NCBI GenBank assembly: GCA_016760525.1
Contig: JAESUW010000040.1
Coordinates: forward strand, 13,989-58,539
Length of the DNA: 44,551 bases
From: Labilibaculum sp.
GTDB lineage: Bacteria; Bacteroidota; Bacteroidia; Bacteroidales; Marinifilaceae
Direction of reading: 5' to 3'
The notes below the pieces were generated by a model that made no database searches, was not told where the DNA came from, and was given only the letters and a program-made list of their open reading frames with translations. The position numbers and the translations under genes are program-made. Below are positions 15,269 through 30,886 of this stretch, one piece after another. How positions within the stretch are numbered: position 1 is the stretch's first letter; every line of letters begins with the position of its first letter.

Positions 15269-18200
15269 ATGAAATTTCTATTTCGCATTGTAGTTTTATA
15301 TATCTTTTTGGCTGCAAATATAGTATTTGGTCAAGGGCAGGCAGGTATATGGTATTTTGGCGAAAATGCAGGATTAGATTTTAATGTTACGCCTTCTGTT
15401 GCTTTAACTAATAGTAGTTTAAATACAGAAGAAGGGTGTTCTACCGTTTGTAATACACAAGGAGATTTGTTGTTTTATACAGATGGAATTACGGTTTATA
15501 ATAAAAATCATGCTGTAATGGCCAATGGTACCGGATTAGATGGTAATTCTTCAGCAACGCAATCTTCAATTATAGTACAACAACCAGGAAGTACTATACT
15601 CTACTATATATTTACTGTTGATGCGCATCAAAATGCTCTTCGGAATGGTTTAAATTATTCCATTGTTGATTTGTCGCAAAACGGAGGCCTTGGTGCTGTT
15701 ACAGTGAAAAATACATTGCTTTATGCCAATGAAGTATGTGAGAAAATAACTGCAGTAAAACACGCTAATGGAACTGATTTTTGGATATTGATGCACAGAT
15801 GGGATAATCGTGATTTTTATGCTTATGAATTTAGTGCATCTGGTATTGCAGCACCTGTAATTAGTACCATTGGAGTAAGTCATAATGGTGATAGAAGATC
15901 TGCCATTGGATATATGAAAACATCTCCTGGTGGTTCAAAATTAGCCGTTGCAATTTACACTCAGAATAGAGTTGAGTTGTTCGATTTTAATACAACTTCG
16001 GGAAGTGTTTCAAATCCGATTCAGCTTAATAACTATTCTACACCTTACGGTATTGAGTTTTCACCTTCAGGAGAGTTTTTATATGTAAGTTTATTTGCCA
16101 GTGGTGATTTGTATCAATTTAATATATCATCCAATAATCAGGCAACGATCAATGGGTCTGCTCAAATTATAGGCAACGGATCGTGGTTGTACGGCGCACT
16201 ACAGTTGGCTCCGGATAATAGAATCTACATGGCCAAAACGAATACGAATGGAACTACAGGAAGTCTTAATTTAGATGTTATTAATAATCCCGACGTAGCA
16301 GGTGCTGGTGCTAATTTTGCAGCTGATTCAAAAAATTTAGCAGGACGCAGATGTATGTTAGGTTTGCCAAATTTTGTAACCAGCATTTTTACCCTCGAGT
16401 TTGCATATCAGTTTGATTGTGTTGGTGATAATACAGAGTTTACGATAAGTTCCGATTTGGCAAATATTTCCAGTGCAACTTGGGATTTTGGTGATGGAGC
16501 AAACTTAACTTCTAACACAAGTCCTTTTACTGTAAATCATGTTTATTCTGTGGCAAATACTTACAATGTCAATCTTGAAGTTAATTTGATTTCAGGAGGA
16601 ACCGATAATATTACTCAGTCGGTTTCGATTCGTTCTTTACCAATTGTTACCGATCAGGCAGAGTCTGTTTGGGAAGATGTTCAAGGCACAGGAATCGCAG
16701 GTGGTGTAGATCTTACTATGTTGGAAAATGCGGTGAACAATACGGTCGGTTCAACTTTTATCTGGTATTCAGATGTTTCATTAACAACTATTGTGCCCGA
16801 TGCAACGAATGTTACTGTAAGCAATGGACAACAGTTTTGGGTTGAGGTAAATGATGGTTTTTGTAATAATGTTGCTATGGTAACCTATACGGTAAATTCT
16901 TTACCAAAAGCTTTGGATCAAAATATCGTTCTCTGCGAAGATAATTACAATTCAGGTGTCGTATCTAATATTGATTTAACATTATTGGAGCCGGCAATTA
17001 CAAATAACAATGGTTTTTTGGTAATATGGTTTCATGATCTTGCCTTAAGTGTACCGGTTATAAATTTAAACAATAGAATCGTTTCTGATGGAGAGATTTT
17101 TTACGTACAAGTGTCAACAGGAACAGAGACAAGTATCGCTGCCGTTACTTATGCAATACAAACCCTTCCAGAGGGAAATGATATTTCTATTCAAATTTGG
17201 GAAGATAGTTTTGGATCAGGAATCGCTTCAGGTATTGATTTAACATCTTATAATTTGCAAGTTGCAGGTGCGAACAACATTGTGTGGTATGCCGATGCAG
17301 GCCTGATAAATCCTATTGGAAGCCCGACTAATCTTGTGGTAAATGACCAAGATGTATTTTACGCATATATTGATAATGGATCATGTTTGAATCGTGGGAG
17401 TATTCAATTTACGGTGCGATCATCGCCAATAGCCAATGATTTAGATATAGAAGTATGCGAAGATGTTTATGGAAGTGGAATTGCCTCAAATATTAATTTA
17501 TTGTTACTGGATGGAGCTGTGAATGGAGGCACTGCAAGTAGTGTTAGCTGGTTTGCAGATGCCGCATTGTCAGTTCCTGTAGCAAATCCTTCAAATGTAA
17601 GCATTACGAATGGACTCATGTTTTATGTTCTTATTCAGAGCGCAGGCGAGTCCAATACGGCAACGGTTACCTATACGGTTCTATCATTACCAATTGCGAA
17701 TAATCAAAGTATTGTGGAGTTTGAAGATGTAGCAGGATCTATGATTTCTTTGGGAGTAGACTTAAGTTTTTATAATAATGCTATTTTAGGAGGACAATCA
17801 AATTCTATTGATTGGTATGTAGATTCTGGTCTTACAACTTTGGTTCTTGATCCAACAAATCAAGATGTGGGAGATGGAGATTTTTTTTATGTGTTGGTGG
17901 CAAATGGAACCTGTTCAAATGTTGCAACGATTGATTTTTCAGTTGTAAATACACCAATAGCAAGAAATGTATTTTCTGTAGTGTGTGAAGATGTTGTTGG
18001 AACGGGAACTGCTTTAGTTGATTTAAGTTTGCTTGAGAATCAAATAAACGAAGGCAACGGCGATTCTTTTGCATGGTATTTCGATTGGCCTGGAGAACCA
18101 AGTGGTTTGCCTGTTAATGCGATTCCAGATCCTGTCAATGTGATTGTTAATGATGGAGATCGTTTATTTGCGGCTGTGAGCGATGTGTTTAATACTAATG

Positions 18201-20032
18201 TTGCTGTAGTTAGTTATACAGTTCATTCTTTGCCCAATGCAGTCGATCAAACGGTTGAAGTTTGGGAAGATGTATTTGGTACAGGCTTAGCATCGGGAAT
18301 AAATTTACTTGCTTATAATTCGCTTGTTTCAAGTAATTCTATATTGTGGTATGAAGATGCTTTGCTAACAATTCCTGTGTCGACACCCGATAACATAAAT
18401 GTGATTACAGGTGATGATTATTATGCACAGGTTGATGATGGGAATTGTCAGAATTCGGCAGTTTTGACATTTAATGTTAGGGATTTGCCCGAAGCAAATA
18501 ATCTGCAGGTTGAATTGTGTGAAGACATATTGGGGAGTGGCACCTTATCATCCTATGATCTTTCTCAATTAGAATCCGCTGTAAATAATGATCAGGGAAC
18601 TATAAAAGAATGGTTTCTTGATATCAGTTTGACTTTACCCGTTCCTTCTCCTATGAGCACGACTATTTCTAACGGAGACAGCTTTTTTGTTAGGGTAAGT
18701 TTTGGTGCTGAAAGTAATGTTGGGCGCATCGATTTTATCATAAATTCGTTGCCCGATGCTCAAGACCATGTGGTAACATTATGTGAAGATATTTTTAATA
18801 CAGGCCGGATAATTGGCGAAAATTTAAATAACTATGAATCGGATATCACTTCATCAGTAACAAGTGCAATTGTTTGGTATTCAGATACAGGCTATTTAAA
18901 TCCAGTTTTAAATACTCAGAATGTTTTGGTTTCTGATGGAGACATCTATTATGCGAGAGTTTGGGATGGTACTTGTGAGAATTTTGCAGAACTATCATTT
19001 GATATTTTGTCATTACCTCAAACTTCAACGGTAAATGAATTAGTCTGTGAAGATAGTTTTGGTTCGTCATCATTATCTGGAATAAACCTTACTGCATATA
19101 ATTTACAGGTGAGTAACGATCCGGCAGCAAATGTACTATGGTTTGAGGATGATCAATTGAATATTCCTGTCGTGAATCCTTCAGATATAACCATTTTTAA
19201 TCAAAGTTCATATTATGCTCAAGCTACCAATGCGAGTGGCTGTGAAAATTCGGGGAGATTGAATTTTACGGTGAATCCTCTGCCTGAAGCAAATGATTTG
19301 AGTTTTGAGCTGTGCGAGGATGCTGTAGGAATAAGAGAAGTTGCTGAGTATGATCTGACATTGCTAAATAATCAGGTTACAACAAACGCATCTGTTGTTG
19401 TCAGTTGGTATGAAGATGTAGATTTGCTTATTCCTGTTGTTAATCCAGTTAATGTAACAATTCGTTCTAATGAAAGCTATTTTGCGAAAGTTGAAAATGG
19501 ATGTATTAATTTATCGGTGGTTGATTTTATAATTCACGACAAACCTACTTTTGATTTAGGTATGGATACAACAATATTTTACACTGAATCTAAAATATTA
19601 TCACCATCAATAGATATTCGCTTCTTGCCTGGCAATTATTTGTGGCAAGATGGTTCTATGGCTTCAACCTACACTGTTACTCAAGAAGGAAAGTACACTC
19701 TTGAATATGCAGATGTGAACGGTTGTGTTGGCTTTGATTCCATTATGGTATATATGGATAGGTATCGAATATATGTGCCTAATGCTTTTACACCAGATGG
19801 AAATGGTGTAAATGATACTTTTGGACCATCAATTACTGGTGATATTGCAGATGAAGATATTGAAATGTTTATTTACAATCGTTGGGGTGAATTAATATAT
19901 GAATTTACTGATTTAGGCCAAGGGTGGGATGGTACCTATAAAGGGAAGAAAGCAAATACGGGAGTATATGTTTGGATTCTAATTATTAATGGGAAAGCCC
20001 GCCAGGATGGCAATGTTTCTTTAATTCGATAA
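15269..20032 (+). CDS. T9SS type B sorting domain protein with PKD and 11 Ig-like repeats
   Basis: This is a 1587-residue surface or secreted protein with a signal peptide (about 1-22, ending IVFGQ). The N-terminal region (about 25-375) has the FGENAGLDFN start and a propeller-like layout common in gliding-associated proteins. A PKD domain follows (about 379-455, with ATWDFGDGAN). Then come 11 tandem units of about 88 residues (about 457-1420), each beginning like LPxAxDQxxxxCEDxxGSG and ending in a strand such as GDxFYVxV. A final Ig-like segment precedes the type B sorting domain (about 1500-1587: VPNAFTPDGNGVNDTFG, IYNRWGELIYE, GWDGTYKG). Type B cargo is exported by the type IX system and usually needs a SprF/PorP partner, which is the next gene, one base downstream. 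Cysteines alternate between repeats. Confidence 0.95.
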   Translation: MKFLFRIVVLYIFLAANIVFGQGQAGIWYFGENAGLDFNVTPSVALTNSSLNTEEGCSTVCNTQGDLLFYTDGITVYNKNHAVMANGTGLDGNSSATQSSIIVQQPGSTILYYIFTVDAHQNALRNGLNYSIVDLSQNGGLGAVTVKNTLLYANEVCEKITAVKHANGTDFWILMHRWDNRDFYAYEFSASGIAAPVISTIGVSHNGDRRSAIGYMKTSPGGSKLAVAIYTQNRVELFDFNTTSGSVSNPIQLNNYSTPYGIEFSPSGEFLYVSLFASGDLYQFNISSNNQATINGSAQIIGNGSWLYGALQLAPDNRIYMAKTNTNGTTGSLNLDVINNPDVAGAGANFAADSKNLAGRRCMLGLPNFVTSIFTLEFAYQFDCVGDNTEFTISSDLANISSATWDFGDGANLTSNTSPFTVNHVYSVANTYNVNLEVNLISGGTDNITQSVSIRSLPIVTDQAESVWEDVQGTGIAGGVDLTMLENAVNNTVGSTFIWYSDVSLTTIVPDATNVTVSNGQQFWVEVNDGFCNNVAMVTYTVNSLPKALDQNIVLCEDNYNSGVVSNIDLTLLEPAITNNNGFLVIWFHDLALSVPVINLNNRIVSDGEIFYVQVSTGTETSIAAVTYAIQTLPEGNDISIQIWEDSFGSGIASGIDLTSYNLQVAGANNIVWYADAGLINPIGSPTNLVVNDQDVFYAYIDNGSCLNRGSIQFTVRSSPIANDLDIEVCEDVYGSGIASNINLLLLDGAVNGGTASSVSWFADAALSVPVANPSNVSITNGLMFYVLIQSAGESNTATVTYTVLSLPIANNQSIVEFEDVAGSMISLGVDLSFYNNAILGGQSNSIDWYVDSGLTTLVLDPTNQDVGDGDFFYVLVANGTCSNVATIDFSVVNTPIARNVFSVVCEDVVGTGTALVDLSLLENQINEGNGDSFAWYFDWPGEPSGLPVNAIPDPVNVIVNDGDRLFAAVSDVFNTNVAVVSYTVHSLPNAVDQTVEVWEDVFGTGLASGINLLAYNSLVSSNSILWYEDALLTIPVSTPDNINVITGDDYYAQVDDGNCQNSAVLTFNVRDLPEANNLQVELCEDILGSGTLSSYDLSQLESAVNNDQGTIKEWFLDISLTLPVPSPMSTTISNGDSFFVRVSFGAESNVGRIDFIINSLPDAQDHVVTLCEDIFNTGRIIGENLNNYESDITSSVTSAIVWYSDTGYLNPVLNTQNVLVSDGDIYYARVWDGTCENFAELSFDILSLPQTSTVNELVCEDSFGSSSLSGINLTAYNLQVSNDPAANVLWFEDDQLNIPVVNPSDITIFNQSSYYAQATNASGCENSGRLNFTVNPLPEANDLSFELCEDAVGIREVAEYDLTLLNNQVTTNASVVVSWYEDVDLLIPVVNPVNVTIRSNESYFAKVENGCINLSVVDFIIHDKPTFDLGMDTTIFYTESKILSPSIDIRFLPGNYLWQDGSMASTYTVTQEGKYTLEYADVNGCVGFDSIMVYMDRYRIYVPNAFTPDGNGVNDTFGPSITGDIADEDIEMFIYNRWGELIYEFTDLGQGWDGTYKGKKANTGVYVWILIINGKARQDGNVSLIR

Positions 20033-20033
20033 A

Positions 20034-21053
20034 ATGGTGAAATGGAGGCTTATTTATATCGTCGGTTGTTTGCTGTTGACTTCATTGGTTAAGGCTCAGG
20101 ACGTTGAGTTTTCACAATTTTATGCAAATCGACTCTACCTTAATCCTGCATTTGCTGGATCAGAATATGTTCCTACTGTTGGCATGTCATATCGAAATCA
20201 ATGGCCGCAAAATAACCATCCTTTTGTAACTTATAGTGCGTCCTATGATCAATTTGTTGATTTAATGAACGGTGGTTTGGGAATATTGGTTCTTCAAGAT
20301 AATCAGGGACAAGGGGCGATAAAAACAACAATGGCAGCAGGTCTGTATTCATATTCTTTGGATATCAACAGGACCTTATCTGTGAACGTTGGGCTGAAGG
20401 CTAATTTTATTCAACGTAAATTAGATTGGGAATCATTTGTGTTTTCGGATATGATTGATCCATTATATGGAGTAATTTATCCATCCAGAGAAATTCAACC
20501 AAGCAATTTGAGTAAATCATACTGGGATTTTTCCATGGGGATCATTGTAAATTATAAGAATTTTTATTTTGGAGGAGTTGTTGATCATCTCTCAGAACCT
20601 AATGAGGCCTTTAATTCAGTACAAAATGTGGCCGTTTTGCCTCGCAAGTATACTGTACATGCAGGTGCAAGTATTCCTATGGGGTATTCCCGTGGATTAA
20701 TGAAGAGTAATTTTTCAATATCACCCAATGTATTATATCAAAGACAGCTCGATTTTGAACAAATGAACTACGGTTTGTATTTATCTCGAAGTAATTGGGT
20801 GGTTGGTGCATGGTTTCGTCAAAACTTATCTTTCGATTTTGATGCGTTTATTGTTTTGATTGGTTACCAGACAGATAATATCAGAATTGGTTATTCTTAT
20901 GATTATGTGATCTCAAATTTGGTTAAAACCAATTCTGGAGCTCACGAAATATCACTTACTTATTTGTTGGGAAAGGCAAAAACTTCTTGTTCAGGAACTC
21001 ATTTTTTAAGAAAGAAGAGAAGAATACGTGCTGTTCGATGTCCTAAATTTTAA
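20034..21053 (+). CDS. PorP/SprF family type IX secretion outer-membrane protein
   Basis: This 339-residue beta-barrel protein has a signal peptide (ending SLVKAQ) and the family's signature start: VEFSQFYANRLYLNPAFAGS, then YRNQWP and YDQF. It ends with a highly basic tail. In T9SS bacteria such proteins are encoded next to type B cargo and help deliver or anchor that cargo at the cell surface. The ATG follows the stop of the large cargo gene by one base, so the pair is an operon and this protein is probably dedicated to that cargo. Confidence 0.94.
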   Translation: MVKWRLIYIVGCLLLTSLVKAQDVEFSQFYANRLYLNPAFAGSEYVPTVGMSYRNQWPQNNHPFVTYSASYDQFVDLMNGGLGILVLQDNQGQGAIKTTMAAGLYSYSLDINRTLSVNVGLKANFIQRKLDWESFVFSDMIDPLYGVIYPSREIQPSNLSKSYWDFSMGIIVNYKNFYFGGVVDHLSEPNEAFNSVQNVAVLPRKYTVHAGASIPMGYSRGLMKSNFSISPNVLYQRQLDFEQMNYGLYLSRSNWVVGAWFRQNLSFDFDAFIVLIGYQTDNIRIGYSYDYVISNLVKTNSGAHEISLTYLLGKAKTSCSGTHFLRKKRRIRAVRCPKF

Positions 21054-21229
21054 AGGCTTGTATGTTTAATCAATGTGATTATCAGAGATTTGGAGTTTAA
21101 TAATTTTTAACTGGTTAACAAAAGTTAAGATTTCTTAAGAGAAGTCTAATGAAATTATTATTGTTATGATATTAAATTTAGAAATGATATATTTATATAG
21201 TAGTAATCATTGATTTTATTGAGATTAAA

Positions 21230-21736
21230 ATGAGATTTTTTTATAGAAGTATTGTATTTATTTTCCTTTTTATGTTTTTTGTTTCACTACCGGAAATGAA
21301 AGGACAGGAAGTTGAAAGTGATTCTGTAAAAACATTAAAGATTCTTCAAAAAACTTTGGATGATATCATAGAAAAAAATACGTCCTATGAAAAGGTTGGT
21401 TCTAAGATGGAAATTGACGGTTTGGTTATGGATGAAACAATGACCAAAGTAGGACGAGATTTCTATGATATGTTTTTTTCCATTTGGGTTGCGCCGCAAA
21501 AGGCGAAAAATTATACCATTACAGTTAAAGAAATGGTTTTGCCGGGATTGGCAACTCAAATTATTATTTTAGTAAATGAAACGGAAATATTTAAACAAAG
21601 AGTGCAGCCGCGTTATGAAGTATTGGAACAAATGTCTCAATACGCAAATCAAAAGGCAATGCAGTACTTAAATAATTACGAGAAAATGAAGGCCCAACTT
21701 GAAGATGAAGATCAACAAGGAACGGGACTGTTTTAA
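21230..21736 (+). CDS. csgE: Curli secretion specificity factor CsgE
   Basis: This 168-residue periplasmic protein has a signal peptide (ending EMKGQ) and the CsgE core: EIDGLVMDETMTKVGRDFYD with MFFSIW after it, and a C-terminal half with IIILVNETEIFKQRVQPR and VLEQMSQYA. In E. coli, CsgE caps the CsgG channel from the periplasm and guides curlin subunits. It is the first gene of a csgE-csgF-csgG operon (17 and 32 bp gaps). The 176 bp before it hold no exact match to the housekeeping promoter consensus; TATATTTA near 21188 is the closest. Confidence 0.93.
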   Translation: MRFFYRSIVFIFLFMFFVSLPEMKGQEVESDSVKTLKILQKTLDDIIEKNTSYEKVGSKMEIDGLVMDETMTKVGRDFYDMFFSIWVAPQKAKNYTITVKEMVLPGLATQIIILVNETEIFKQRVQPRYEVLEQMSQYANQKAMQYLNNYEKMKAQLEDEDQQGTGLF

Positions 21737-21744
21737 ACCTTAAA
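21732..21744 (+). promoter_or_regulatory. Leader motif upstream of csgF
   Basis: TTTAAACCTTAAA overlaps the csgE stop codon and lies just before csgF. Nearly the same motif is found in the leaders of both large curlin genes (24011-24023 and 26061-26074). Confidence 0.35.
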
Positions 21745-21753
21745 TTGTAAATC

Positions 21754-22176
21754 ATGAATATTATAAAAATAGTATTTGTCTTGTCTTTTCTGAGTTTATT
21801 ATTGCCAACTGAATCGAAAGCACAGGATTTTGTATACAAACCAATAAATTCCTCTTTTGGAGGTGATCAGTATAATTACAATTGGTTGTTGAATTCTGCT
21901 ACTCAGCAAAATAGAATTGAAGATCCTAATGCTGATGATGCTTTAAATAAAGATCCTTTGGATGATTTTCAAGACAATTTAAATCGACAAATTTTGAATC
22001 AACTGTCAAGTAAATTGGTGAATTCTATTTTTGGGGATAATAATGAGCTCGAAACTGGTTCTTATAACCTTGGGAATTACCAGGTTGATATATTTGAGGA
22101 TGGAAGTGGTGTTACCGTTAATATTCAGGATATAACGACAGGAAATTATACGAACGTTGTTATCCCAAGTTATTAA
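21754..22176 (+). CDS. csgF: Curli assembly factor CsgF
   Basis: This 140-residue exported protein has a signal peptide ending ESKAQ, immediately followed by DFVYKPINSSFGGDQYNYNW and LLNSATQQN, the CsgF hallmark; this N-terminal stretch plugs into the CsgG pore in E. coli. The middle has DDFQDNLNRQILNQLSSKLV and the end is a short beta domain. In E. coli, CsgF couples secretion to nucleation at the cell surface. It is the second gene of the csgEFG operon. Confidence 0.94.
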   Translation: MNIIKIVFVLSFLSLLLPTESKAQDFVYKPINSSFGGDQYNYNWLLNSATQQNRIEDPNADDALNKDPLDDFQDNLNRQILNQLSSKLVNSIFGDNNELETGSYNLGNYQVDIFEDGSGVTVNIQDITTGNYTNVVIPSY

Positions 22177-22208
22177 TAAATTGAAAGTTACCTAATAATT
22201 CTCTCTAT

Positions 22209-23672
22209 ATGTTTAAATGTATACGCCACTACTATAGTATTCTAATTTTACTACTTCTCATTAATGGATGTGTTCCCTATTTTAATCAACCCTTAAGCGA
22301 GCAAAGAGCAGAAATTGGCGCTGAAACGCCTGCTAGAAAAAGTTTGGTTAGTCTACCCGAACCAAAAGAGAAGATTGTTGCTGCTGTTTATAAGTTTCGC
22401 GATCAAACCGGGCAATATAAACCTTCCGAAAGCGGTGCTAACTGGTCAACTGCTGTAACCCAAGGAACCACATCCATACTCTTAAAAGCAATTGAAGAAT
22501 CGGGTTGGTTTATTCCTATTGAAAGAGAAGGTCTGTCTAATTTACTCAATGAGCGAAAAATTATACGATCAAGTCGTGCAAATTATGCCGGTCAAACAGA
22601 AAGTTCTCAATTGTTACCACCTCTCTTGTTTGCCGGTTTGGTATTAGAAGGAGGAGTTATTAGTTACGATGCCAATGTATTGACTGGAGGTGCTGGTTTG
22701 AAATATTTTGGTGCTGGTGCTTCCGGGCAGTACCGACAAGATAGAGTTACAGTATATCTTCGTGCAATATCTACTAGCAATGGTCGAATTTTAAAGACCG
22801 TGTATACTTCAAAAATGATTCTTTCTCAAAAATTGGATGCTAGTATTTTTAGATATGTGAAATTTAAACGCCTTCTTGAGGCGGAAGTTGGCTTTACTTA
22901 TAATGAGCCATCTGAAATGGCTGTTAAAGAGGCTATAGAGAAGGCTGTTGAATCTTTAATTATCGAAGGTGTGATAGAAGGTCTTTGGGACTTAAAGAAT
23001 CCTGAAGAAATTAATTCGGATATAATTACTAAATATGTTGAGAGCAAAGAAGATAATCAAGGATCAGATTTCTTCGACCAGTTAATTACTCCGCGCCGTC
23101 GTAAGTTTGGTTTAGGTTTTAATGCCGGATCATGGTTATATATGGGAGATTATAAACATACAGAAATGGAAGCTATGGCTGGTGTGTCTTTATTATACGA
23201 TACCCAATCGGCTTTTCAGTTTGGTCTTAATTTTAGTAGAGGGGATTTAGCAACAACTGATTATTTTCAAAAGACATATAATTCGCTTGATGTAACAGCT
23301 AAATATCGATTATTACCTTATAAAGATTGGACACCGTATATTGAAGGTGGTTTTGGTGTGTTTTCAGAACATGATAAGTCAATATATGCAATTGATATTT
23401 CAAATTCTGTTTATACCCAAGCCTTGTATGGTGCTGGAGTCGAATTTATATTTAATGATAGAATAGGATTAAATTTTTCTATACTGAATCATTATATTTT
23501 TGATGACAATATAGATGGGAAAGAACAGGGGAATTTTAATGATTATTTCTGGGAAGGAAAAATTGGTCTAAACTTTTATTTTGATAAGATTTGGGATCGA
23601 AATAAAAAGAACAAAAACAGAAAAGAAAAAATACGAAAAAAAGCAGTAATTAAACCTGTTTCTACTGAATAA
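22209..23672 (+). CDS. csgG: Curli secretion channel CsgG with C-terminal barrel-like extension
   Basis: This 487-residue outer-membrane lipoprotein has a lipobox LLINGC with the acylated Cys at residue 21. The CsgG core (about 40-268) is clear: VAAVYKFRDQTGQYKPS, GTTSILLKAIEESGWFIPIEREGL, NLLNERKIIR, GGVISYDANVLTGG and GASGQYRQDRVTVYLRA. E. coli CsgG ends near this point (277 residues with its signal). Here about 220 more residues follow: a linker, then a region (about 297-465) of alternating amphipathic strands typical of a small outer-membrane barrel (FGLGFNAGSWLYMGDY ... WEGKIGLNFYF), then a Lys-rich tail. The function of the extension is unknown. It ends the csgEFG operon and has its own terminator. 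Confidence 0.93.
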   Translation: MFKCIRHYYSILILLLLINGCVPYFNQPLSEQRAEIGAETPARKSLVSLPEPKEKIVAAVYKFRDQTGQYKPSESGANWSTAVTQGTTSILLKAIEESGWFIPIEREGLSNLLNERKIIRSSRANYAGQTESSQLLPPLLFAGLVLEGGVISYDANVLTGGAGLKYFGAGASGQYRQDRVTVYLRAISTSNGRILKTVYTSKMILSQKLDASIFRYVKFKRLLEAEVGFTYNEPSEMAVKEAIEKAVESLIIEGVIEGLWDLKNPEEINSDIITKYVESKEDNQGSDFFDQLITPRRRKFGLGFNAGSWLYMGDYKHTEMEAMAGVSLLYDTQSAFQFGLNFSRGDLATTDYFQKTYNSLDVTAKYRLLPYKDWTPYIEGGFGVFSEHDKSIYAIDISNSVYTQALYGAGVEFIFNDRIGLNFSILNHYIFDDNIDGKEQGNFNDYFWEGKIGLNFYFDKIWDRNKKNKNRKEKIRKKAVIKPVSTE

Positions 23673-23692
23673 AATAGTAATAAGTTATTAAC

Positions 23693-23725
23693 AAGGCCGG
23701 ATATTTATCCGGCCTTTTTTTATTT
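23693..23725 (+). terminator. Terminator of the csgEFG operon
   Basis: AAGGCCGGATA (23693-23703) pairs perfectly with TATCCGGCCTT (23706-23716), followed by a long T-rich tract. Confidence 0.9.
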
Positions 23726-23812
23726 TTTTATTTTTCGAGCTTCGATGTTTATAATTTACTGACTATTAGTATCCTGAGGTGGATTGTTTAATTTTTTTTA
23801 ATCTTTTATGTT

Positions 23813-23835
23813 AGATCTATAACTTATATAGATCT
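23813..23835. promoter_or_regulatory. Candidate operator: 9-bp perfect inverted repeat with 5-bp spacer
   Basis: AGATCTATA (23813-23821) and TATAGATCT (23827-23835) form a perfect palindrome about 200 bp before the first curlin start codon. Another AGATCT half occurs about 80 bp further on. The symmetry suits a dimeric regulator. The 362-bp gap 23673-24034 also contains the csgG terminator, a small TCAGG-GAAA-CCTGA hairpin (23987-24000) and the curlin leader. Confidence 0.45.
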
Positions 23836-24004
23836 TCGTCAATTACTTCTTGTTATTCATCATATAAATGTGGTGTTTAATGTAATCGAATATGATATAT
23901 TCAATAGATCTCTCTACATTTAATTGTATTTGAAAACATAAATCAATTAATCATTATCAACCATAACCAAATTTAGGAAAACTTTTTCAGGGAAACCTGA
24001 TCTA

Positions 24005-24024
24005 TTCACTTTAAACCTTAAAAA
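24005..24024 (+). promoter_or_regulatory. Curlin leader element (copy 1)
   Basis: TTCACTTTAAACCTTAAAAA begins 30 bp before the ATG of curlin 1. A nearly identical block lies 29 bp before curlin 2. The fixed distance to the start codon suggests a role in translation or mRNA stability, or recent common origin of the two leaders. Confidence 0.5.
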
Positions 24025-24034
24025 TTTTTAAACC

Positions 24035-25735
24035 ATGAAGAAGATTTTATTCACTTTTTTAGCAGCCCTATGTACAGGGCTTGTTTCGTTTGCCCAAATT
24101 AACCAATCCAATGTTAATCAAGTTGGAAATGCCAATTCAGCTACAGTACAACAAGTAGGTGTTTTTAATATTAATGACATTTATCAAAATGGCGATGATA
24201 ATATTGCCGAAGTTAATCAGTCTGGTTTTTTAAATATGTCATTTTTAGATCAGTATGGTGTCGGGAATGAGTATTATGCAACTCAGTCTATGACTAATTT
24301 CTCAAAAGCGTTACAAGTAGGTAGTTACAATCTTGCTGAAGTTGACCAAGTAGGATTTAATGCATCTTATATCACTCAGTTTTGGGGATCTTATAATAAA
24401 GCATATGTAGATCAATTTGGTTTTTTTAACCTATCTACTATTAGTCAGTTTTTAAGTTATTCTGAAACTGCTAATGTATTTCAGTTTGGTTTTTTAAATT
24501 CAGCGAATGTTATGCAAACTGGAGGTAGATATGATAAGGCAACAATTAGCCAGTGGGGTACTTTGAATAGTGCTGATGTATATCAAACTTTTACCTATAA
24601 AAATAGTGCCTTGGTTGATCAGCATGGATATGGTAATTATGCTCTTGTAAATCAGTTTGCAGGTCGATACAACAATGCTGAAGTTTCTCAAAGAGGTCAA
24701 ATGAATACTGCACTTGTTGATCAGTTTTTTGGAATGGGAAATAGCTCTGTTGTTATGCAGAAAGGTAAAGAAAACTTTGCATGGACGTATCAGGTTGGCG
24801 GTTTCTTAAATAAAATTGATGTAAATCAAAAAGGTAAAGGAAATGAAGCATATGCTGCTCAGTATGGCGGAGCTTTTAATAATTCTACTATAATGCAACG
24901 TGGAAAAAGCAATGTTGCAGTAACCGGACAGGTTGGTGGAGTTTTTAATGATGCAGATGTAAACCAAAGAGGACGCAGTAATCTTGCTGTAATTGCACAA
25001 ATTGGTGGTGCTTTTAATGATGCTGCAATTTCACAAAGAGGAAAAATGAATACTGCTGAAATTTTACAAGCTGGTGGTGTTTTTAATGATGCAGATGTAT
25101 ACCAAAGGGGTAAAAAGAATGAAGCTTCAGTTTATCAATTAGGTGGTTTTGTTAATGCAGCTGTTGTTAATCAGTATGGTAAAATGAATGATGCTTACGT
25201 TTATCAAGAAGGTGGTAAGTTTAATAAAGCTACTGTATCTCAGTATGGTAAAGGTAATGACGCAACGATTAAGCAAATTGATAATGAATATACTACTGCT
25301 TACATTGGACAGTTTGGTGACGATAATGACGCTTTAATTTATCAGAAAAATAATTCTGGAAGTTATGCTGGAGTTTTACAAATTGGTGAAGAGAATGCTG
25401 CCTTAATAGGACAGTTGGAAACCTCAAATACTTTTGCAGGAATATTACAGATTGGTAATGGTAATATGGCCGCAATCGGACAGTATGAAGTTCAAAACAG
25501 TTCTGCAGTGATTTATCAGGATGGTGATAATAATTTGGCTTTATCTGCTCAAGCATTCGGTGAAAATAACATCGCTGAAACATATCAAGTTGGTGATTAC
25601 AACTCCTCAGCTACATTACAAATCGGTAGCAACAATACTGTAAATGTTTACCAGAATGGTTATGGTCATTCGTCAGTAGTTACTCAATATGGTAATGGTA
25701 ATACAGCAACCGTAAGTCAGTATAACGGATTCTAA
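24035..25735 (+). CDS. Giant curlin (CsgA-like amyloid subunit), about 24 repeats
   Basis: This 566-residue protein has a signal peptide (about 1-21, ending VSFAQ) and then nothing but curlin strand units from residue 23 to the end. I count about 48 units of 11-12 residues with the pattern N-x-A-x-V-x-Q-x-G-x-x, such as NSATVQQVGVF and NDADVNQRGRS. Two units make one curlin repeat, giving about 24 repeats; E. coli CsgA has 5 in 151 residues. From about unit 15 the units mostly alternate 11 and 12 residues (QRGK, then QVGGxF), a 23-residue period. The stacked Asn and Gln ladders are those that form the amyloid beta-solenoid. It should be the major or co-major fibre subunit secreted through CsgG. 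It is probably transcribed alone, with its own leader and terminator. Confidence 0.93.
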   Translation: MKKILFTFLAALCTGLVSFAQINQSNVNQVGNANSATVQQVGVFNINDIYQNGDDNIAEVNQSGFLNMSFLDQYGVGNEYYATQSMTNFSKALQVGSYNLAEVDQVGFNASYITQFWGSYNKAYVDQFGFFNLSTISQFLSYSETANVFQFGFLNSANVMQTGGRYDKATISQWGTLNSADVYQTFTYKNSALVDQHGYGNYALVNQFAGRYNNAEVSQRGQMNTALVDQFFGMGNSSVVMQKGKENFAWTYQVGGFLNKIDVNQKGKGNEAYAAQYGGAFNNSTIMQRGKSNVAVTGQVGGVFNDADVNQRGRSNLAVIAQIGGAFNDAAISQRGKMNTAEILQAGGVFNDADVYQRGKKNEASVYQLGGFVNAAVVNQYGKMNDAYVYQEGGKFNKATVSQYGKGNDATIKQIDNEYTTAYIGQFGDDNDALIYQKNNSGSYAGVLQIGEENAALIGQLETSNTFAGILQIGNGNMAAIGQYEVQNSSAVIYQDGDNNLALSAQAFGENNIAETYQVGDYNSSATLQIGSNNTVNVYQNGYGHSSVVTQYGNGNTATVSQYNGF

Positions 25736-25770
25736 AATTGTATTCAATGATTTATTGATTTATAATATTT

Positions 25771-25814
25771 AAAACCACCAAAATTGAATAAAATCTCAAT
25801 TTTGGTGGTTTTTT
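25771..25814 (+). terminator. Terminator of curlin 1
   Basis: A 17-bp perfect stem (25771-25787 with 25796-25812, AAAACCACC... / ...GGTGGTTTT) is followed by more T. Confidence 0.9.
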
Positions 25815-25835
25815 CATTATTGGAATTTAATACTC

Positions 25836-25853
25836 CTTAAACTTTTGTTTAAG
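25836..25853. repeat. Palindrome CTTAAAC-TTTT-GTTTAAG between the curlins
   Basis: A perfect 7-bp inverted repeat with a 4-bp spacer lies in the 348-bp gap 25736-26083, after the curlin 1 terminator. It may be an operator or a secondary terminator. The gap also holds the curlin 2 leader; no exact TTTG/TAnnTTTG promoter pair is visible. Confidence 0.35.
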
Positions 25854-26054
25854 TTTTCTTATTCTTTTTTAGAATGAATAAAGATTAGCATAAAAGAGAC
25901 TTGGTTTAATCACTAAATCAGTGCCGTTTGTGTAAAAACATAGCTAGTTGGAAAGGCTTTTTCTTAATTTAGATAAAAAGATTGAAGGATGCTGTAAGTG
26001 CATTATTTGATCTGTCAGAGTTCTTAAACCTTTAAAATTGATTTTTAAAATTAA

Positions 26055-26075
26055 TTCACTTTAAACCTTTAAAAA
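26055..26075 (+). promoter_or_regulatory. Curlin leader element (copy 2)
   Basis: TTCACTTTAAACCTTTAAAA starts 29 bp before the ATG of curlin 2 and matches the curlin 1 leader over its first 15 bases. A further TTAAACCTTTAAAA copy lies about 35 bp upstream. Confidence 0.5.
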
Positions 26076-26083
26076 ATTCAACC

Positions 26084-27727
26084 ATGAAAAAATTTTTATT
26101 TTTATTTGTAGCTGTCGTTTTTGCAGGATCTTCTGCATTTACACAGGTAAACAATTCGAATGTCAATCAAACAGGTTGGCTAAACACTGCTGGCGTAACT
26201 CAGGTAGGCTGGTTTAATAGTAGCGATGTAGATCAACTTGGACTATGGAATGGTGCAACTGTTGATCAGACAGGCTTGGCTAATTACTCTTCAGTTGATC
26301 AGTTTCTTGTTGGAAACATGGCTGATGTAACGCAACTGGGTTTGTTTAACAGTTCTTATGTAGATCAAGTAGGATTTTTTAATTCTGCCGTTGTTGATCA
26401 AATGGGACTTGCTAACTTTTCAGGCATAATGCAATTAGGCCTTGCAAATTCGGCTTCTGCTACTCAGTACGGACTTTTCAATATGTCTGATATTACTCAG
26501 TATGGATTATTTAATTCAGCAACAGCAATGCAAGTTGGATTAGCAAATTATTCTTCTATACTACAGGGTAACTTTGGTAATAGTGCTGGTGTACTACAAG
26601 TAGGTGCTTTTAATAATAGTACCGTGTATCAAATGGGTTTCCTTAGTTCTGCAATGGTTGCTCAGTTTGGATTAATGAACTCTGCATCTATTACTCAACT
26701 GTATACTTACTTGTCAACTGCTGAAATCCTTCAGGTAGGAATTGCAAATCGTGCAAGGACTTTACAAGTAGGTGGAGATCATAACCATGCATTTATTAAT
26801 CAGTGGGGTTTCCGTAATTTAGCAAGGACAACTCAGTTAGGTGGAAGTTTTAATAATGCTTCTATTACTCAGTTAAGAGCGTTTAACAGAGCTTCTACAA
26901 CACAATTAGGTGGATATTCGAATAGTGCTGCTATTCACCAAAATGGTTATTTTAACAGAGCTTCAACATTCCAGTTAGGAGGAACTGATAACGATGCTTC
27001 TATTACTCAAAATGGTTGGGCTAACCGAGCAAGAACTGTTCAAATTGGCGGAAGCGGTAATGATGCTAAAACAACTCAAATGGGTGCACGTAACTGGGCA
27101 TATGTTGAGCAAATTGGAGAAGTTGATGGTAAGGTAGTAGTAAAACAGAAAGGTTACAGAAATTTTGCTGATGTAACACAGATGTTTGGTACAGGGGACA
27201 AAGCAAGAGTTAACCAAAAAGGAGCTTTTAACAGAGCTTATGTTTCTCAGTTGTTTGGAACTAAAAATAAAGCAAAAGTTGTTCAGAGAGATTATAGTAA
27301 CTTAGCTGTAGTTGTTCAGATTGGTGGCATGAAGAATAAAGCTGATGTATACCAAAAAGGAGAGGATAACTTTGCATTTGTTGGACAATTTGGAGGATCT
27401 GATAATGAAGCTTTTGTTGAGCAAAGAGGTGATGATAACAGTGGTTTGGTATTTCAGGTTGCTCAAGAAGAAAGTTTGGCTGACATCTTACAATTAGGTG
27501 ATGATAACGTTGCTGTGATTGGTCAGATTGTTGGGGCTAGAAATAGTGCAACAATTATTCAAACAGGTGATGACAATACAGGATTAACCTTTCAGTTTGG
27601 AGATGACAATACTTCATTCCTTGAACAAGTTGGTAACGACCACTTTGGTTTAGTTATTCAGGATGGTAATGATAACTTCGCTGTAACTCAGCAAGGAAAT
27701 GCCGGAACGATCTTTGTAGGTCCATAA
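26084..27727 (+). CDS. Giant curlin (CsgA-like amyloid subunit), about 23 repeats, two-part
   Basis: This 547-residue protein has a signal peptide (about 1-21, ending SAFTQ) and about 46 curlin strand units, making about 23 repeats, followed by a six-residue tail. The first 17 units are strictly 11 residues with hydrophobic turn residues (GWF, GLF, GLA, GFF). From about unit 18 the units alternate 12 and 11 residues, the turns carry Arg, Lys and His, and the last third is rich in GDDN and GEDN turns. This two-part layout differs from curlin 1, which has few hydrophobic turns. Both end in similar Asn/Asp-rich units. It should be a second fibre subunit secreted through CsgG. Paralogy with curlin 1 is clear, but divergence is high outside the Asn/Gln ladder. 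Confidence 0.93.
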   Translation: MKKFLFLFVAVVFAGSSAFTQVNNSNVNQTGWLNTAGVTQVGWFNSSDVDQLGLWNGATVDQTGLANYSSVDQFLVGNMADVTQLGLFNSSYVDQVGFFNSAVVDQMGLANFSGIMQLGLANSASATQYGLFNMSDITQYGLFNSATAMQVGLANYSSILQGNFGNSAGVLQVGAFNNSTVYQMGFLSSAMVAQFGLMNSASITQLYTYLSTAEILQVGIANRARTLQVGGDHNHAFINQWGFRNLARTTQLGGSFNNASITQLRAFNRASTTQLGGYSNSAAIHQNGYFNRASTFQLGGTDNDASITQNGWANRARTVQIGGSGNDAKTTQMGARNWAYVEQIGEVDGKVVVKQKGYRNFADVTQMFGTGDKARVNQKGAFNRAYVSQLFGTKNKAKVVQRDYSNLAVVVQIGGMKNKADVYQKGEDNFAFVGQFGGSDNEAFVEQRGDDNSGLVFQVAQEESLADILQLGDDNVAVIGQIVGARNSATIIQTGDDNTGLTFQFGDDNTSFLEQVGNDHFGLVIQDGNDNFAVTQQGNAGTIFVGP

Positions 27728-27746
27728 TTTAAAATATTTAATAGTG

Positions 27747-27775
27747 AAAAAATCCCGCTTCGGCGGGATTTTTTT
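27747..27775 (+). terminator. Terminator of curlin 2
   Basis: AAAAAATCCCGC and GCGGGATTTTTT form a perfect stem closed by a TTCG tetraloop between C and G, an extra-stable loop, followed by T. Confidence 0.93.
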
Positions 27776-27802
27776 ACTCTAATAGTTTTTCACAAACCTA
27801 CT

Positions 27803-28066
27803 GTGTCGTTAATTATTCGGAAATATTTATGGTTTGCTCTGTTCGTATTTTGCTTCGGTAATTTATTAGACCAAAATTATAATATTGAAGATCAGGTTCT
27901 AAACCAATTAAATAATGGTGTAGTTGATGCTGTAAATGCTGAAACTAAAGTTTCGGTAATACAATCAGGAGATAAAAATAAATTGATTTTAAATCAATTT
28001 AGTTATAAACAGTTGGCCATTATTCAGCAGGCAGGAATGAATTTGATAATAAAAAGTGGTTTGTGA
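27803..28066 (+). CDS. Small curlin-like protein, candidate nucleator (CsgB-like)
   Basis: This 87-residue protein has an N-terminal hydrophobic signal (about 8-20, WFALFVFCFGNLL), a short linker and then three to four curlin-type units: KVSVIQSGDK, NKLILNQFSYK and QLAIIQQAGMN, ending LIIKSGL. The Gln ladder and Asn positions match the curlin pattern. Size and position suggest a minor subunit that nucleates fibres, as CsgB does in E. coli, but it is shorter than CsgB; that role is inference. The only sensible start is GTG at 27803, since no in-frame ATG lies between the preceding terminator and the signal peptide. A strong terminator follows. Confidence 0.72.
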   Translation: MSLIIRKYLWFALFVFCFGNLLDQNYNIEDQVLNQLNNGVVDAVNAETKVSVIQSGDKNKLILNQFSYKQLAIIQQAGMNLIIKSGL

Positions 28067-28089
28067 ATACAGAGCAGGTTTAAAATGAT

Positions 28090-28120
28090 GGGATGCCTTT
28101 TATAGGCATCCCTTTTTTTT
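28090..28120 (+). terminator. Terminator of the small curlin gene
   Basis: GGGATGCC (28090-28097) pairs with GGCATCCC (28105-28112), followed by eight T. Confidence 0.92.
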
Positions 28121-28240
28121 AAGATAATTTAGGAAATAGGTACTTTTTTTTGAAGTTATTAAAGTAATTTAACGGACTTTATATTGATTCACAGTTAAAT
28201 ATTAAATAAATTTAGAATAGATTAATTAATTAAATTGAGA

Positions 28241-28621
28241 ATGATATCGAAATTGATCATTTTTAGTAGTCTGTATTTCTGTTTTAATGTATTAAATATA
28301 GAGAAACAGTTGCCCGTAAAAGTATGGATTGATATTGAGGGAGAACTTCCGAACCTGTCGTTAAAGGCAATGCTTCTAAACAACGGAGATAAAGATTTGT
28401 CATTAAGTTATGTTCTTAAAATTACCAAAAAAGGGAGATTAGGGGAGTCTAATTCTTTACAGAAAGGTGCTTTTATCGCTGCTCAGAATAAAATTACTTC
28501 TCTTTCTGAATCAAGAATGAATCTTAGAAAAGGTGATAAATTAATTGCCAGATTGTTAGTTTATCATGATAAGATAATAGTTGCTCAAGATTCGGTTGTT
28601 TTCCATGGAGATAATTATTAA
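28241..28621 (+). CDS. csgH: CsgH-like curli assembly modulator
   Basis: This 126-residue exported protein has a short N-terminal hydrophobic segment (about 3-18) and one small beta-sandwich domain. It shows the CsgH-type pattern: VWIDIEGELPNLSLKAML, then LSLSYVLKITKKGRLGESNSL, QKGAFIAAQNK and an ALxxSRMNL-like strand with LIARLLVY. CsgH in alphaproteobacteria suppresses premature curlin aggregation in the periplasm. Its presence beside curlins and csgEFG supports the call, although sequence identity to characterised CsgH looks low. The ATG at 28241 is preferred over an upstream TTG. It is probably co-transcribed with the lipoprotein gene 33 bp downstream. Confidence 0.75.
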   Translation: MISKLIIFSSLYFCFNVLNIEKQLPVKVWIDIEGELPNLSLKAMLLNNGDKDLSLSYVLKITKKGRLGESNSLQKGAFIAAQNKITSLSESRMNLRKGDKLIARLLVYHDKIIVAQDSVVFHGDNY

Positions 28622-28654
28622 TTTAAAGAAAAATAAAATTGACAATATATATAT

Positions 28655-30184
28655 ATGCGACAATTCTACCTACTCTCTAGATTTATAATACTGCTTTGTC
28701 TGTCTGCAATAATTTTTTCCTGTAATGAAGGTACCATTGATCCGGATTTGTTTGGTTCGATAAGTGGTACAGTAAAAACTTCCGAAGAGAATGGGAGTTT
28801 GCCAATGGAAGGGGTTAGTATAACCACTAATCCAGGAACGACATCTGTTACGACAGATTCTGTGGGCTACTTTGCAATCGAAGATGTGGAAGTAGGTGAT
28901 TATACGGTTAGTGCCAAAAAGGAAGACTATACTGCAGTAAGTACTAGTGTTAAAGTTCGCGAAGGACAAGAAAACGTAATGCAGGTAGTGATGCAAATTG
29001 CACCTGATGAGACTGTCGCACCAGGTGAAGCTGTGTATGTGACACCTCTTGATGCAAGTGTGGATTTACAAACTGAGGTTGAATTGGTCTGGAACAATGG
29101 GGAAACGGAAAAAGGGGATACCTTATTTTTTGATGTTATTCTTTATGAAGATGGGGAATTTGTTGGTGATACAATTGCTGAAGGTATTATGGATACAACT
29201 TTTGTTGCTGTAAATCTGAAATTTGAAACTAATTATCGTTGGAAGGTAGATGCCAGCAATAGAGCCAGCTATAAAACAGAAGGCCGGGAATGGAAGTTTA
29301 GCACGGAAGACTTTCCTGAGAATGGTTATTTGTTTGTGAAGGATACCTTAGGAAGTAGAGATGTATATTCATGGGATTTGGCTGATAATCATTTGGTTCG
29401 ACTAACTAAGGATGGTGGAAGTGAAGTTTCACCTAGAATATCACCTAATGAGGAATTGATAGCGTATTCTTCTAATGTGTCTGGTGAATATCATATTTAT
29501 ACAATGAATCCGAAAGGGGAAAATGTGATGAAAGTGACTAACGATAAGCCCGTAGCTAGTTATAACAATAATGGAACTGGCTTTGTTTGGTCTCCGGAAG
29601 GGGATCAAATTCTTTATGGACACTACGGAAGTCTTTATACTATAAATTATAATGGTACTGGTGAAAATAAAATTGCGAATGCTCCTGTAAATCGTCATTT
29701 TAAGTCTTGCGACTGGAGCGATCATTTTAATAATGCCTCACAAGAAAAAATTGCTGTCCTTACTCAAGGGGAGAAGCCTTATGACAATGAAATTTATTTG
29801 ATGGACCCAGATGGTTCAAATCTGTTTTTACTTGTGGGAAATCTGGAAGGAACAATTTCGAGTCCTCATTTTTCAACTGACGGTACAAAAGTTATTTTTT
29901 CTTTGGATTCTTTATTTCAAGATGATGACGGCAGACAATTAAATGCTAAAATTTATTCTGTAAATATTGATGGAACCAATTTTGTGAATTTGTCTGGTGA
30001 TGATAAACCAGATGGGACAAATGATCTGCAAGCTCGGTTCACAGCTACTGGTGGTAAAATCGTTTTTATGAATGTTTTAAATAACAATAAAGGTGTTAAA
30101 AGCATTTGGATCATGGATACTGATGGAAGTAATCGGGAGGAGATTATTACTAATGGAGAGATGCCTGATTTGTATAATCCTTAA
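28655..30184 (+). CDS. Lipoprotein with carboxypeptidase-regulatory, FN3-like and beta-propeller domains
   Basis: This 509-residue lipoprotein has lipobox SAIIFSC with the acylated Cys at 23, followed by N-E rather than an Asp. A carboxypeptidase-regulatory-like sandwich (about 33-108: GSISGTVKT, MEGVSITTNPG, GYFAIEDVEVGDYTVSAKK) comes first. An FN3-like domain follows (about 118-222, ending NYRWKVDASN ... WKFST). A TolB/PD40 propeller fills the rest (about 225-505), with repeated blades of the type SPRISPNEELIAYSS and YTMNPKGENVMKVT. It is likely anchored in the outer membrane. Its place at the end of the curli cluster, 33 bp after csgH and before a terminator, suggests a role in anchoring or assembling fibres; this is inference. 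Confidence 0.88.
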   Translation: MRQFYLLSRFIILLCLSAIIFSCNEGTIDPDLFGSISGTVKTSEENGSLPMEGVSITTNPGTTSVTTDSVGYFAIEDVEVGDYTVSAKKEDYTAVSTSVKVREGQENVMQVVMQIAPDETVAPGEAVYVTPLDASVDLQTEVELVWNNGETEKGDTLFFDVILYEDGEFVGDTIAEGIMDTTFVAVNLKFETNYRWKVDASNRASYKTEGREWKFSTEDFPENGYLFVKDTLGSRDVYSWDLADNHLVRLTKDGGSEVSPRISPNEELIAYSSNVSGEYHIYTMNPKGENVMKVTNDKPVASYNNNGTGFVWSPEGDQILYGHYGSLYTINYNGTGENKIANAPVNRHFKSCDWSDHFNNASQEKIAVLTQGEKPYDNEIYLMDPDGSNLFLLVGNLEGTISSPHFSTDGTKVIFSLDSLFQDDDGRQLNAKIYSVNIDGTNFVNLSGDDKPDGTNDLQARFTATGGKIVFMNVLNNNKGVKSIWIMDTDGSNREEIITNGEMPDLYNP

Positions 30185-30226
30185 ATTATGTAGGTGTGTA
30201 ATTTTGATAAAATAGTAAGACACAAA

Positions 30227-30258
30227 AAAAGCTTTCCAATTTGGAAAGCTTTTATATT
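30227..30258. terminator. Bidirectional terminator between the lipoprotein gene and rplS
   Basis: AAAAGCTTTCCAA and TTGGAAAGCTTTT form a long perfect stem with A-rich and T-rich flanks on both sides, between two convergent genes. Confidence 0.88.
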
Positions 30259-30275
30259 TTTTAGATAAGTGTAAA

Positions 30276-30623
30276 TTAGAATCTTTTTTCTTTGATTCTA
30301 GCTTTTTTACCTGTAAGTGCACGAATATAGTAAATTCTTGCTCTTCTAACACTACCTCTTTTATTCACTTCGATTTTGTCGATTAATGGAGAGCTAAGTG
30401 GAATGATTCTTTCAACACCTATGTTACCAGACATTTTTCTGATTGTGAAAGTTTTTGTTGTACCAGCACCTTTAACCTGAATAACAACACCTCTAAAAAT
30501 CTGGATTCTTTCTTTGTTTCCCTCTTTAATTTTGTACGAAACACTAATAGTATCCCCTGCTTTAAATTCAGGAGTTTGAGTACCTGTAGCGAAAGCTTCT
30601 TCTGCAATTTTAATTAAATCCAT
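30276..30623 (-). CDS. rplS: Large ribosomal subunit protein bL19
   Basis: This 115-residue ribosomal protein sits at the interface of the two ribosomal subunits. It shows the family features: [20 protein letters not shown], the [10 protein letters not shown] strand, [22 protein letters not shown] and the C-terminal [20 protein letters not shown]. Length is normal. It lies alone on the minus strand, convergent with the curli-associated lipoprotein gene. An exact -7 box (TAATTTTG, minus strand, 30705-30712) lies about 80 bp upstream, giving a leader of about 75 nt. Confidence 0.98.
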
Positions 30624-30712
30624 TGTCTTATTTGTTATAGTTCACGAACGCAATGTAAACATATTCATCTATTACCATGTCAGAGATTACGCACGAATTC
30701 GCGACAAAATTA
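30624..30712 (-). promoter_or_regulatory. rplS promoter -7 box and possible structured leader
   Basis: TAATTTTG (minus strand, 30705-30712) matches the -7 consensus. In the leader, CGTAAT can pair with ATTGCG about 30 nt further on, with a G-U pair. Ribosomal protein leaders with autoregulatory structures are known in Bacteroidetes; whether this is one is untested. Nothing else is seen between here and 30842. Confidence 0.3.
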
Positions 30713-30842
30713 GTAAAAATATCTATACCACCATCTTAATAATGTATTTTTTTATATAGGATGTTTAGTACATTAAAATTTTATGACGTAATTATTAAAA
30801 GCTGGTAATATATAGATGATTAAGATATTTGATCGAATAAAA

Positions 30843-30866
30843 AAAAGGAACCGAAAGGTTCCTTTT
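30843..30866 (-). terminator. Terminator of the C69 peptidase gene
   Basis: AAAAGGAACC and GGTTCCTTTT form a 10-bp stem with a 4-nt loop; on the minus strand it is followed by TTTTATTCG. Confidence 0.88.
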
Positions 30867-30886
30867 CATATTAATAATAATTGATG

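Follow-up and report, generated by a model that had tools for sequence, protein, structure and literature searches.

The 44,551-nucleotide stretch of Labilibaculum sp. DNA analysed here (contig JAESUW010000040.1, positions 13,989–58,539; hereafter the window) probably harbours a Bacteroidota-type curli (type VIII secretion) locus that is conserved in part of the Marinifilaceae and works by the mechanism proposed below. Pfam and NCBIfam family matches for csgE, csgF, csgG and the curlins bear out the curli assignment, and CsgE and CsgF adjoin CsgG, as expected of such a system. Each part named in an initial annotation, made from the sequence alone, is present where it had been placed (Table 1): csgE, csgF, csgG, two giant curlin genes (curA and curB), a small open reading frame (ORF; curC), and the genes of a CsgC/CsgH-like (CsgC/H-like) protein and a propeller lipoprotein. 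Curli secretion and fibre formation are what this gene content would predict. The points of more interest are an extra domain of CsgG, fusions of CsgE, a lipoprotein encoded next to the curlins and a small curlin that has decayed repeatedly.

The source genome is a 3.5-Mb draft of 202 contigs, 63% complete, whose closest named relatives in our scan are Labilibaculum and Marinifilum. CsgF was found in 18 of 96 genomes, its own included; all 18 belong to the family, which contributed 56 of the 96 genomes, and the 40 taken from the rest of the order gave none. We fetched the loci of the 17 relatives. Three of them (L028, L032 and L033) end at a contig edge before both curlins are complete; the 14 whose contigs span both giant curlins are termed covered relatives. 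Across the phylum, CsgF occurs in 51 of 392 genomes sampled (own one counted; 46 above cut-off). The phylum comparison comprises 40 of the 43 strong CsgF matches besides the window's own locus, leaving out G253, G340, G480 and seven weak matches, and each locus was fetched as about 20 kb around csgF (L113 being a 5.5-kb contig end).

The CsgG of the window consists of a pore domain followed by a C-terminal domain that the initial annotation had left unreported. The solved E. coli-type CsgG (277 amino acids (aa)) aligns only to residues 11–277 of the window protein (E 1e-67). In the AlphaFold2 model, the C-terminal domain shows eight strands of 12–15 residues each, with a mean predicted local distance difference test score (pLDDT) of 78.9 and within-strand blocks mostly of 80–95. 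Foldseek searches with this model return OmpA and NspA as the best solved matches (best E 2.3e-7, template modelling score about 0.56–0.77), and Pfam OMP_b-brl scores 29.5 bits against a cut-off of 28.7. The domain is predicted to be a complete OmpA-like, eight-stranded outer-membrane barrel. CsgG is 450–531 aa long in all 41 proteins compared (40 phylum loci and the window), against 277 in E. coli, and OMP_b-brl is matched at E 0.01 or better in 28 of them. Both termini of an eight-stranded barrel face the periplasm. In E. coli CsgG, too, the C-terminal region lies on the periplasmic side, according to the available portion of a 2025 review (PMC12822426), so that a fusion of pore and barrel is topologically possible. 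NanoporeDB, as far as its available description goes (PMC13397529), cut off the residues beyond the solved CsgG before modelling.

CsgE was found by BLAST in 37 of the 40 phylum loci, and these proteins together with three neighbouring ones (L091, L086 and L088) form a set of 40 aligned proteins. Because Pfam CsgE matches 38 of the 40, two of them are not CsgE; these are most likely L086 and L088, both stand-alone CsgC/H-like proteins. Twelve of the 38 carry an N-terminal CsgC/H-like domain (domain E 6e-31 to 3e-22; profile of 20 stand-alone CsgC/H-like sequences), which ties the CsgC/H-like protein to the same pathway. NCBIfam CsgH matches 13 of the 40 proteins in the set, a count in which stand-alone ones are not separated, and Pfam LysM matches 10 of the 40. 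Examples of CsgE fusions among the other Bacteroidota (L074–L113) are L082:8989–9720 and L100:8984–9730. Neither kind of fusion occurs in the window, where csgE is short and the CsgC/H-like gene separate.

The last gene of the locus encodes the lipoprotein for which the initial annotation had proposed a propeller, and matches to CarboxypepD_reg and to PD40/TolB-like propeller repeats agree with that description. All 14 covered relatives possess the lipoprotein. In 38 of the 40 phylum loci, BLAST places a protein with a CarboxypepD domain on the 20 kb around csgF (none in L099 and L113), and CarboxypepD_reg is matched in each of the 39 proteins examined, the window's included. A length of at least 450 aa, sufficient for a full propeller, is reached by 22 of these 39 (21 of 38 without the window). 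Within its own genome, the lipoprotein has three weak matches outside the locus. A simple lipobox pattern occurs in 34 of 39 proteins, some of these pattern matches being evidently wrong, and at least two acidic residues follow the cysteine in 19 of 39; acidic residues in this position resemble the surface-export signals of Bacteroidota lipoproteins.

The CsgC/H-like gene starts, by alignment, at the ATG at 28241 and not at the TTG at 28235. Its product scores 40.5 bits with the NCBIfam CsgH model, above the cut-off of 35, and 19.8 bits with that of Pfam, below the cut-off of 27, while the CsgC model gives 16.3 bits against a cut-off of 75. The CsgH-like factor of the initial annotation is therefore upheld by one CsgH model and not by the other, nor by the cysteine pattern; because the mature part contains no cysteine, and so neither the distant pair of CsgH nor the CxC of CsgC, we name the protein CsgC/CsgH-like rather than CsgH. 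The gene is present in 11 of 14 covered relatives. In the other three (L029, L030 and L041) there is no reading frame, a remnant of the last codons remains readable, and no CsgC/H-like match at E 0.01 was found elsewhere in these genomes.

The initial annotation counted about 48 and 46 strand units in the two giant curlins. Chains of Q residues at curlin spacing reproduce these counts; when the mature proteins were shuffled 1000 times each, the longest chains reached 18 and 16, respectively. CurA and CurB are acidic (isoelectric points (pI) 4.58 and 4.75) and 39.5% identical, with charge distributed differently along the two. Modelling of both as solenoids had been proposed; CurB, the one modelled, shows regular strands over its whole length in AlphaFold2 (mean pLDDT 90.2) and may be read as a continuous solenoid. 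Both giants are present, and adjacent, in 14 of 14 covered relatives, with 542–613 aa and Q chains of 46–52. The curB copies fall into length classes of 546–548, 568 and 612–613 aa, and an alignment of 13 of them fits the gain or loss of whole repeats.

In the phylum sample, by the Q-chain rule, which misses degenerate repeats, a curlin of at least 40 units was found on the fetched stretch in none of the 40 loci; by the same rule, a Saprospiraceae locus (L157) has a curlin of 46 units. Genome-wide, open frames of 500 aa or longer with curlin repeats occur in at least three genomes (G450, G368 and G326) of 43 from the phylum. Of the 40 phylum loci, a Q-chain-based rule assigns a small curlin to 17, a large one to 16 and both to 5. 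Giant size is thus uncommon in the phylum sample but already known: the available portions of three papers give curlins of up to 22 repeats (Dueholm 2012, PMC3521004), of 4–62 repeats with a secondary maximum near 22 and usually at least two curlin copies per genome (Sleutel 2023, PMC10192328), and of 3–52 repeats (2025 review, PMC12822426). These published ranges rule out subunit size as a novelty, although it had been singled out as unusual in the initial annotation. The second peculiarity noted there is the presence of two large subunits. By the Q-chain rule, the pair of about 24 and about 23 repeats was not seen in the 40 other Bacteroidota loci; the pair is a trait of the family, and of a known kind.

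Two further arrangements of curlins were observed. A third giant curlin is encoded elsewhere in the same genome (L009:7120–8559, contig C130; 479 aa, pI 4.05, 66 acidic against 4 basic residues), and 9 of the 17 relatives have an orthologue that is at least 58% identical; in the 16 kb around the curlin gene, no ORF other than the curlin itself matches the proteins of the window's csg cluster. In Reichenbachiella faecimaris (L139:11894–16209), four curlins of 380, 444, 397 and 172 aa stand in a row between csgG and the lipoprotein gene.

The 87-aa CurC is identified solely by alignment with intact 177-aa relatives, to whose first part and last residues it aligns, with 270 bp gone and the frame kept. 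Pfam gives no curlin match for it, and a Q chain of 4 is no longer than chance allows, shuffled sequences reaching 5. The tiny curlin-like protein of the initial annotation therefore exists as an ORF but is a deletion derivative of a 177-aa curlin and not a part designed small; a native minimal protein was dropped as the first reading. The locus copy is the only strong match in the draft genome. Intact curC is found in 11 of 14 covered relatives, each time with 177 aa and a Q chain of 10, directly after curB. In the remaining three (L036, L041 and L044) it is broken by stops and shifts, and since these fall in three genera, separate losses would be the simplest reading. The flanks of the stretch lost in the window share GGAATG in L043, and the downstream copy reads GGTATG in three other relatives; slippage between repeats may possibly have caused the deletion.

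Intact CurC has about five repeats and a gene of its own beside the major curlin, as for a CsgB-type minor curlin. NCBIfam does not separate CsgA from CsgB here: intact CurC scores 35.9 and 30.8 bits, respectively, both far below the cut-offs, and for the two giants the CsgB model gives the higher score. A profile of the C-terminal end was built from 26 small curlins; it has limited reach, since 10 of 13 held-out small curlins score less than the 18.2 bits of the best of 72 large curlins. The CurC of two Marinifilum loci reaches 38.2 bits at the C-terminus, three copies from the Labilibaculum side reach 21.6–23.8 bits with the best segment not at the very end, and the window copy scores 12.5 bits. 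Intact CurC may belong with the small-curlin class of other Bacteroidota, its size matching and the profile being clear for two copies and partly so for three.

The subunit genes are separated by terminator hairpins. A script located hairpins with T-runs behind csgG (10 of 11 loci), curB (11 of 11) and curC (8 of 8); after curA, it located them in 5 of 11 spacers, one of which (L040) is different and weak, and RNAalifold did not return the terminator when run on the whole curA–curB spacer. Five stem pairs of the csgG hairpin are changed on both sides in some relatives' rows, as are two pairs of the curA leader hairpin (one row each), whose loop is GNRA in 15 of 15 rows. Compared pairwise over 15 loci, the curA–curB spacer is on average 72% identical and the csgG–curA spacer 62%, while the third codon positions of csgF, over 13 loci, reach 57%; the excess in the curA–curB spacer indicates constraint. 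The part of this spacer upstream of curB (25813–26083) contains strongly conserved blocks, and an Rfam scan of 15000–31000 gave no family at gathering score. A sigma-70 promoter scan was uninformative (39 sites against 45 expected in shuffles). The initial annotation had drawn from the separate terminators an independent control of stoichiometry. The terminators are real and conserved; such control may exist, but cannot be read off them directly because curA and curB have the same leader motif just before their start codons.

Directly upstream of csgE, a large type IX secretion system (T9SS) cargo and a PorP/SprF protein are found in 17 of 17 relatives. The two were considered as curli parts and left out: despite this synteny, PorP has no BLAST match in the 40 phylum loci (the T9SS cargo was not searched there). 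The Pfam scan of the window covered 10 proteins, among which there is no csgD product; no search for one was made elsewhere.

Table 1. Features of the curli locus and its neighbours, in window coordinates.
Feature	Position	Strand	Basis
csgE, stand-alone type	21230..21736	+	Pfam CsgE E 5e-22
csgF	21754..22176	+	Pfam CsgF E 1e-40
csgG, 487 aa, pore domain and C-terminal domain	22209..23672	+	Pfam CsgG E 3.5e-64
CsgG C-terminal domain, predicted 8-stranded OmpA/NspA-like barrel	23052..23669	+	AlphaFold2, Foldseek, Pfam OMP_b-brl
Terminator hairpin after csgG	23693..23716	+	consensus scan; paired changes in relatives
Hairpin with GNRA loop in curA leader, 34 bases before curA start	23987..24000	+	script, alignment
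Leader motif common to curA and curB, curA copy	24005..24019	+	script; conserved alignment columns
curA, giant curlin, 566 aa, 48 strand units	24035..25735	+	Pfam Curlin_rpt E 6e-83
Terminator hairpin after curA	25771..25812	+	consensus scan; inverted repeat by eye in 15/15 rows
Leader motif common to curA and curB, curB copy	26055..26069	+	script; conserved alignment columns
curB, giant curlin, 547 aa, 46 strand units	26084..27727	+	Pfam Curlin_rpt E 9e-67; structure model
Terminator hairpin after curB	27746..27775	+	script only; not listed by consensus scan
curC, small curlin of 87 aa (177 in intact relatives), 270-bp deletion in frame, GTG start	27803..28066	+	alignment with 11 intact relatives
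Terminator hairpin after curC	28090..28112	+	consensus scan and script
CsgC/CsgH-like protein, signal peptide, no cysteine in mature part, pI 9.44	28241..28621	+	NCBIfam NF041112
Lipoprotein, CarboxypepD_reg domain and PD40/TolB-like propeller	28655..30184	+	Pfam, NCBIfam
Hairpin with T-runs on both strands, between lipoprotein gene and convergent rplS	30227..30253	.	consensus scan
Large T9SS cargo (CHU_C, PKD, Ig_7); syntenic neighbour, not curli part	15269..20032	+	Pfam
PorP/SprF family protein; syntenic neighbour, not curli part	20034..21053	+	Pfam E 7e-59

In the mechanism that we favour, the basic CsgC/H-like protein would keep the acidic curlins unfolded in the periplasm, and CsgE would pass them to a CsgG nonamer bearing nine fused small barrels, with CsgF located at the exit. 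CurA and CurB would then stack end to end into fibres, and the propeller lipoprotein would act at the outer membrane, perhaps as an anchor or a quality check. For the most part, CurA, CurB and CurC would each have a transcript of their own. The small curlin is a likely CsgB-type starter or cap; because curC is cut down here and decayed in some relatives, the giant curlins are probably able to start fibres without it.

Several observations weigh against parts of this mechanism. Thirteen of the 41 CsgG proteins have no OMP_b-brl match at E 0.01, and the barrel was modelled as a single chain without the CsgG pore, not as an assembly of nine. The CsgC/H-like protein lacks the cysteines of both named families, and its copies in relatives are not all basic (pI 6.1 in L043, 7.0 in L036). 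Of the 39 CarboxypepD proteins, 17 fall short of 450 aa and only 8 match PD40 at E 0.01, so that a propeller is not needed throughout the phylum; the chance rate of such a protein was judged from the window's own genome, and CarboxypepD_reg may be commoner in others. Small curlins, with 17 of the 40 phylum loci having one, do not accompany the system everywhere, and, the genome being incomplete, an intact curC could lie elsewhere or the deletion could be an assembly error. The Foldseek search with the CurB model, which returned no solved relative under E 0.001, speaks neither for nor against.

Alternatively, this might be an ordinary Bacteroidota curli locus, in which the giants, the extra CsgG domain and the lipoprotein are lineage variation without a new mechanism. 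The known span of curlin repeat numbers, the similar length of every CsgG in the sample, which would make the extra domain routine in the phylum, and the whole-repeat differences among curB copies all fit such a view. We nevertheless consider it unlikely, as the extra domain is kept across the sample and predicted to be a complete barrel, both giants hold 46–52 units across the family, and the curA–curB spacer appears to be under constraint. A different question is whether CurA and CurB form one mixed fibre or two fibres made at different times. The hairpin terminators between the genes, their long and partly different upstream regions and the divergence of the two proteins in sequence and charge spread would suit two fibres, which are possible but doubtful given the common leader motif beside the start codon and the unbroken adjacency of curA and curB in the relatives.

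The shortened CurC, for its part, could still function as a minimal starter or cap, with both ends of the 177-aa protein preserved, and not be a decaying gene. Its deletion is in frame, the signal peptide, first unit and last residues are retained, and a terminator still lies downstream. Over 78 shared codons, the ratio of non-synonymous to synonymous substitution rates (dN/dS) is 0.37–0.49 in three pairs with the window against 0.15–0.32 in three without it, on few changes; such raised values are not special to curC, the CsgC/H-like gene, at 0.18–0.60, evolving no more slowly. These values still point towards decay, as do the GTG start in place of the relatives' ATG, the broken gene in three covered relatives and an end-profile score inside the large-curlin range, below those of the five intact copies (21.6–38.2 bits). 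A working CurC is rather unlikely.

More broadly, and tentatively, Bacteroidota curli could represent a distinct secretion architecture. A CsgG nonamer would bear nine fused satellite barrels, the CarboxypepD/propeller lipoprotein would be dedicated to the system, and CsgE would be joined variously to a CsgC/H-like chaperone or to a LysM domain as cell-wall anchor, the giants of Marinifilaceae being self-nucleating and their CsgB-type starter in the course of being lost. Should the barrel prove functional, a second architecture would exist across the phylum for the curli export pore, which in its E. coli form is also used in nanopore sequencing. Fusions of CsgE offer natural evidence as to which components come together in the periplasm, and because small curlins have decayed repeatedly next to giant ones, it can be tested directly whether long curlins require a separate nucleator. 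In the literature searched, outside which lay subscription journals and preprints, no title or abstract start concerned a CsgG barrel, a curli lipoprotein or a CsgH–CsgE fusion, no paper was found on CsgE, LysM and curli together, and the portions of papers available held no report of small-curlin decay.

Among known systems, the locus shares phylum, several curlin copies and high repeat numbers (up to 22) with the curli of Dueholm 2012, and several copies, repeats of up to 62 and solenoid models with the long curlins of Sleutel 2023; the available portions of these two papers do not mention an extra CsgG domain, a lipoprotein or small-curlin decay. The CsgC/H-like protein resembles the CsgC/CsgH amyloid-inhibitor family, of which Taylor 2016 (PMC4838910), in the portion available, names a Bacteroidetes sub-family, in passing NCBIfam CsgH, lying near curlin genes and being more basic than the curlins, and differs in having neither of the family's disulphide patterns. 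With OmpA- and NspA-type eight-stranded outer-membrane barrels, the C-terminal domain of CsgG shares its predicted fold, but here the barrel is fused to a pore subunit. The E. coli system (csgBAC, csgDEFG) has in common with the window CsgE, CsgF, CsgG, subunits made of curlin repeats and a CsgC/H-type protein near the subunit genes. In contrast, its CsgG is without the extra C-terminal domain and its curlins have 5 repeats against about 24 and 23, while the window adds the propeller lipoprotein and terminators between the subunit genes.

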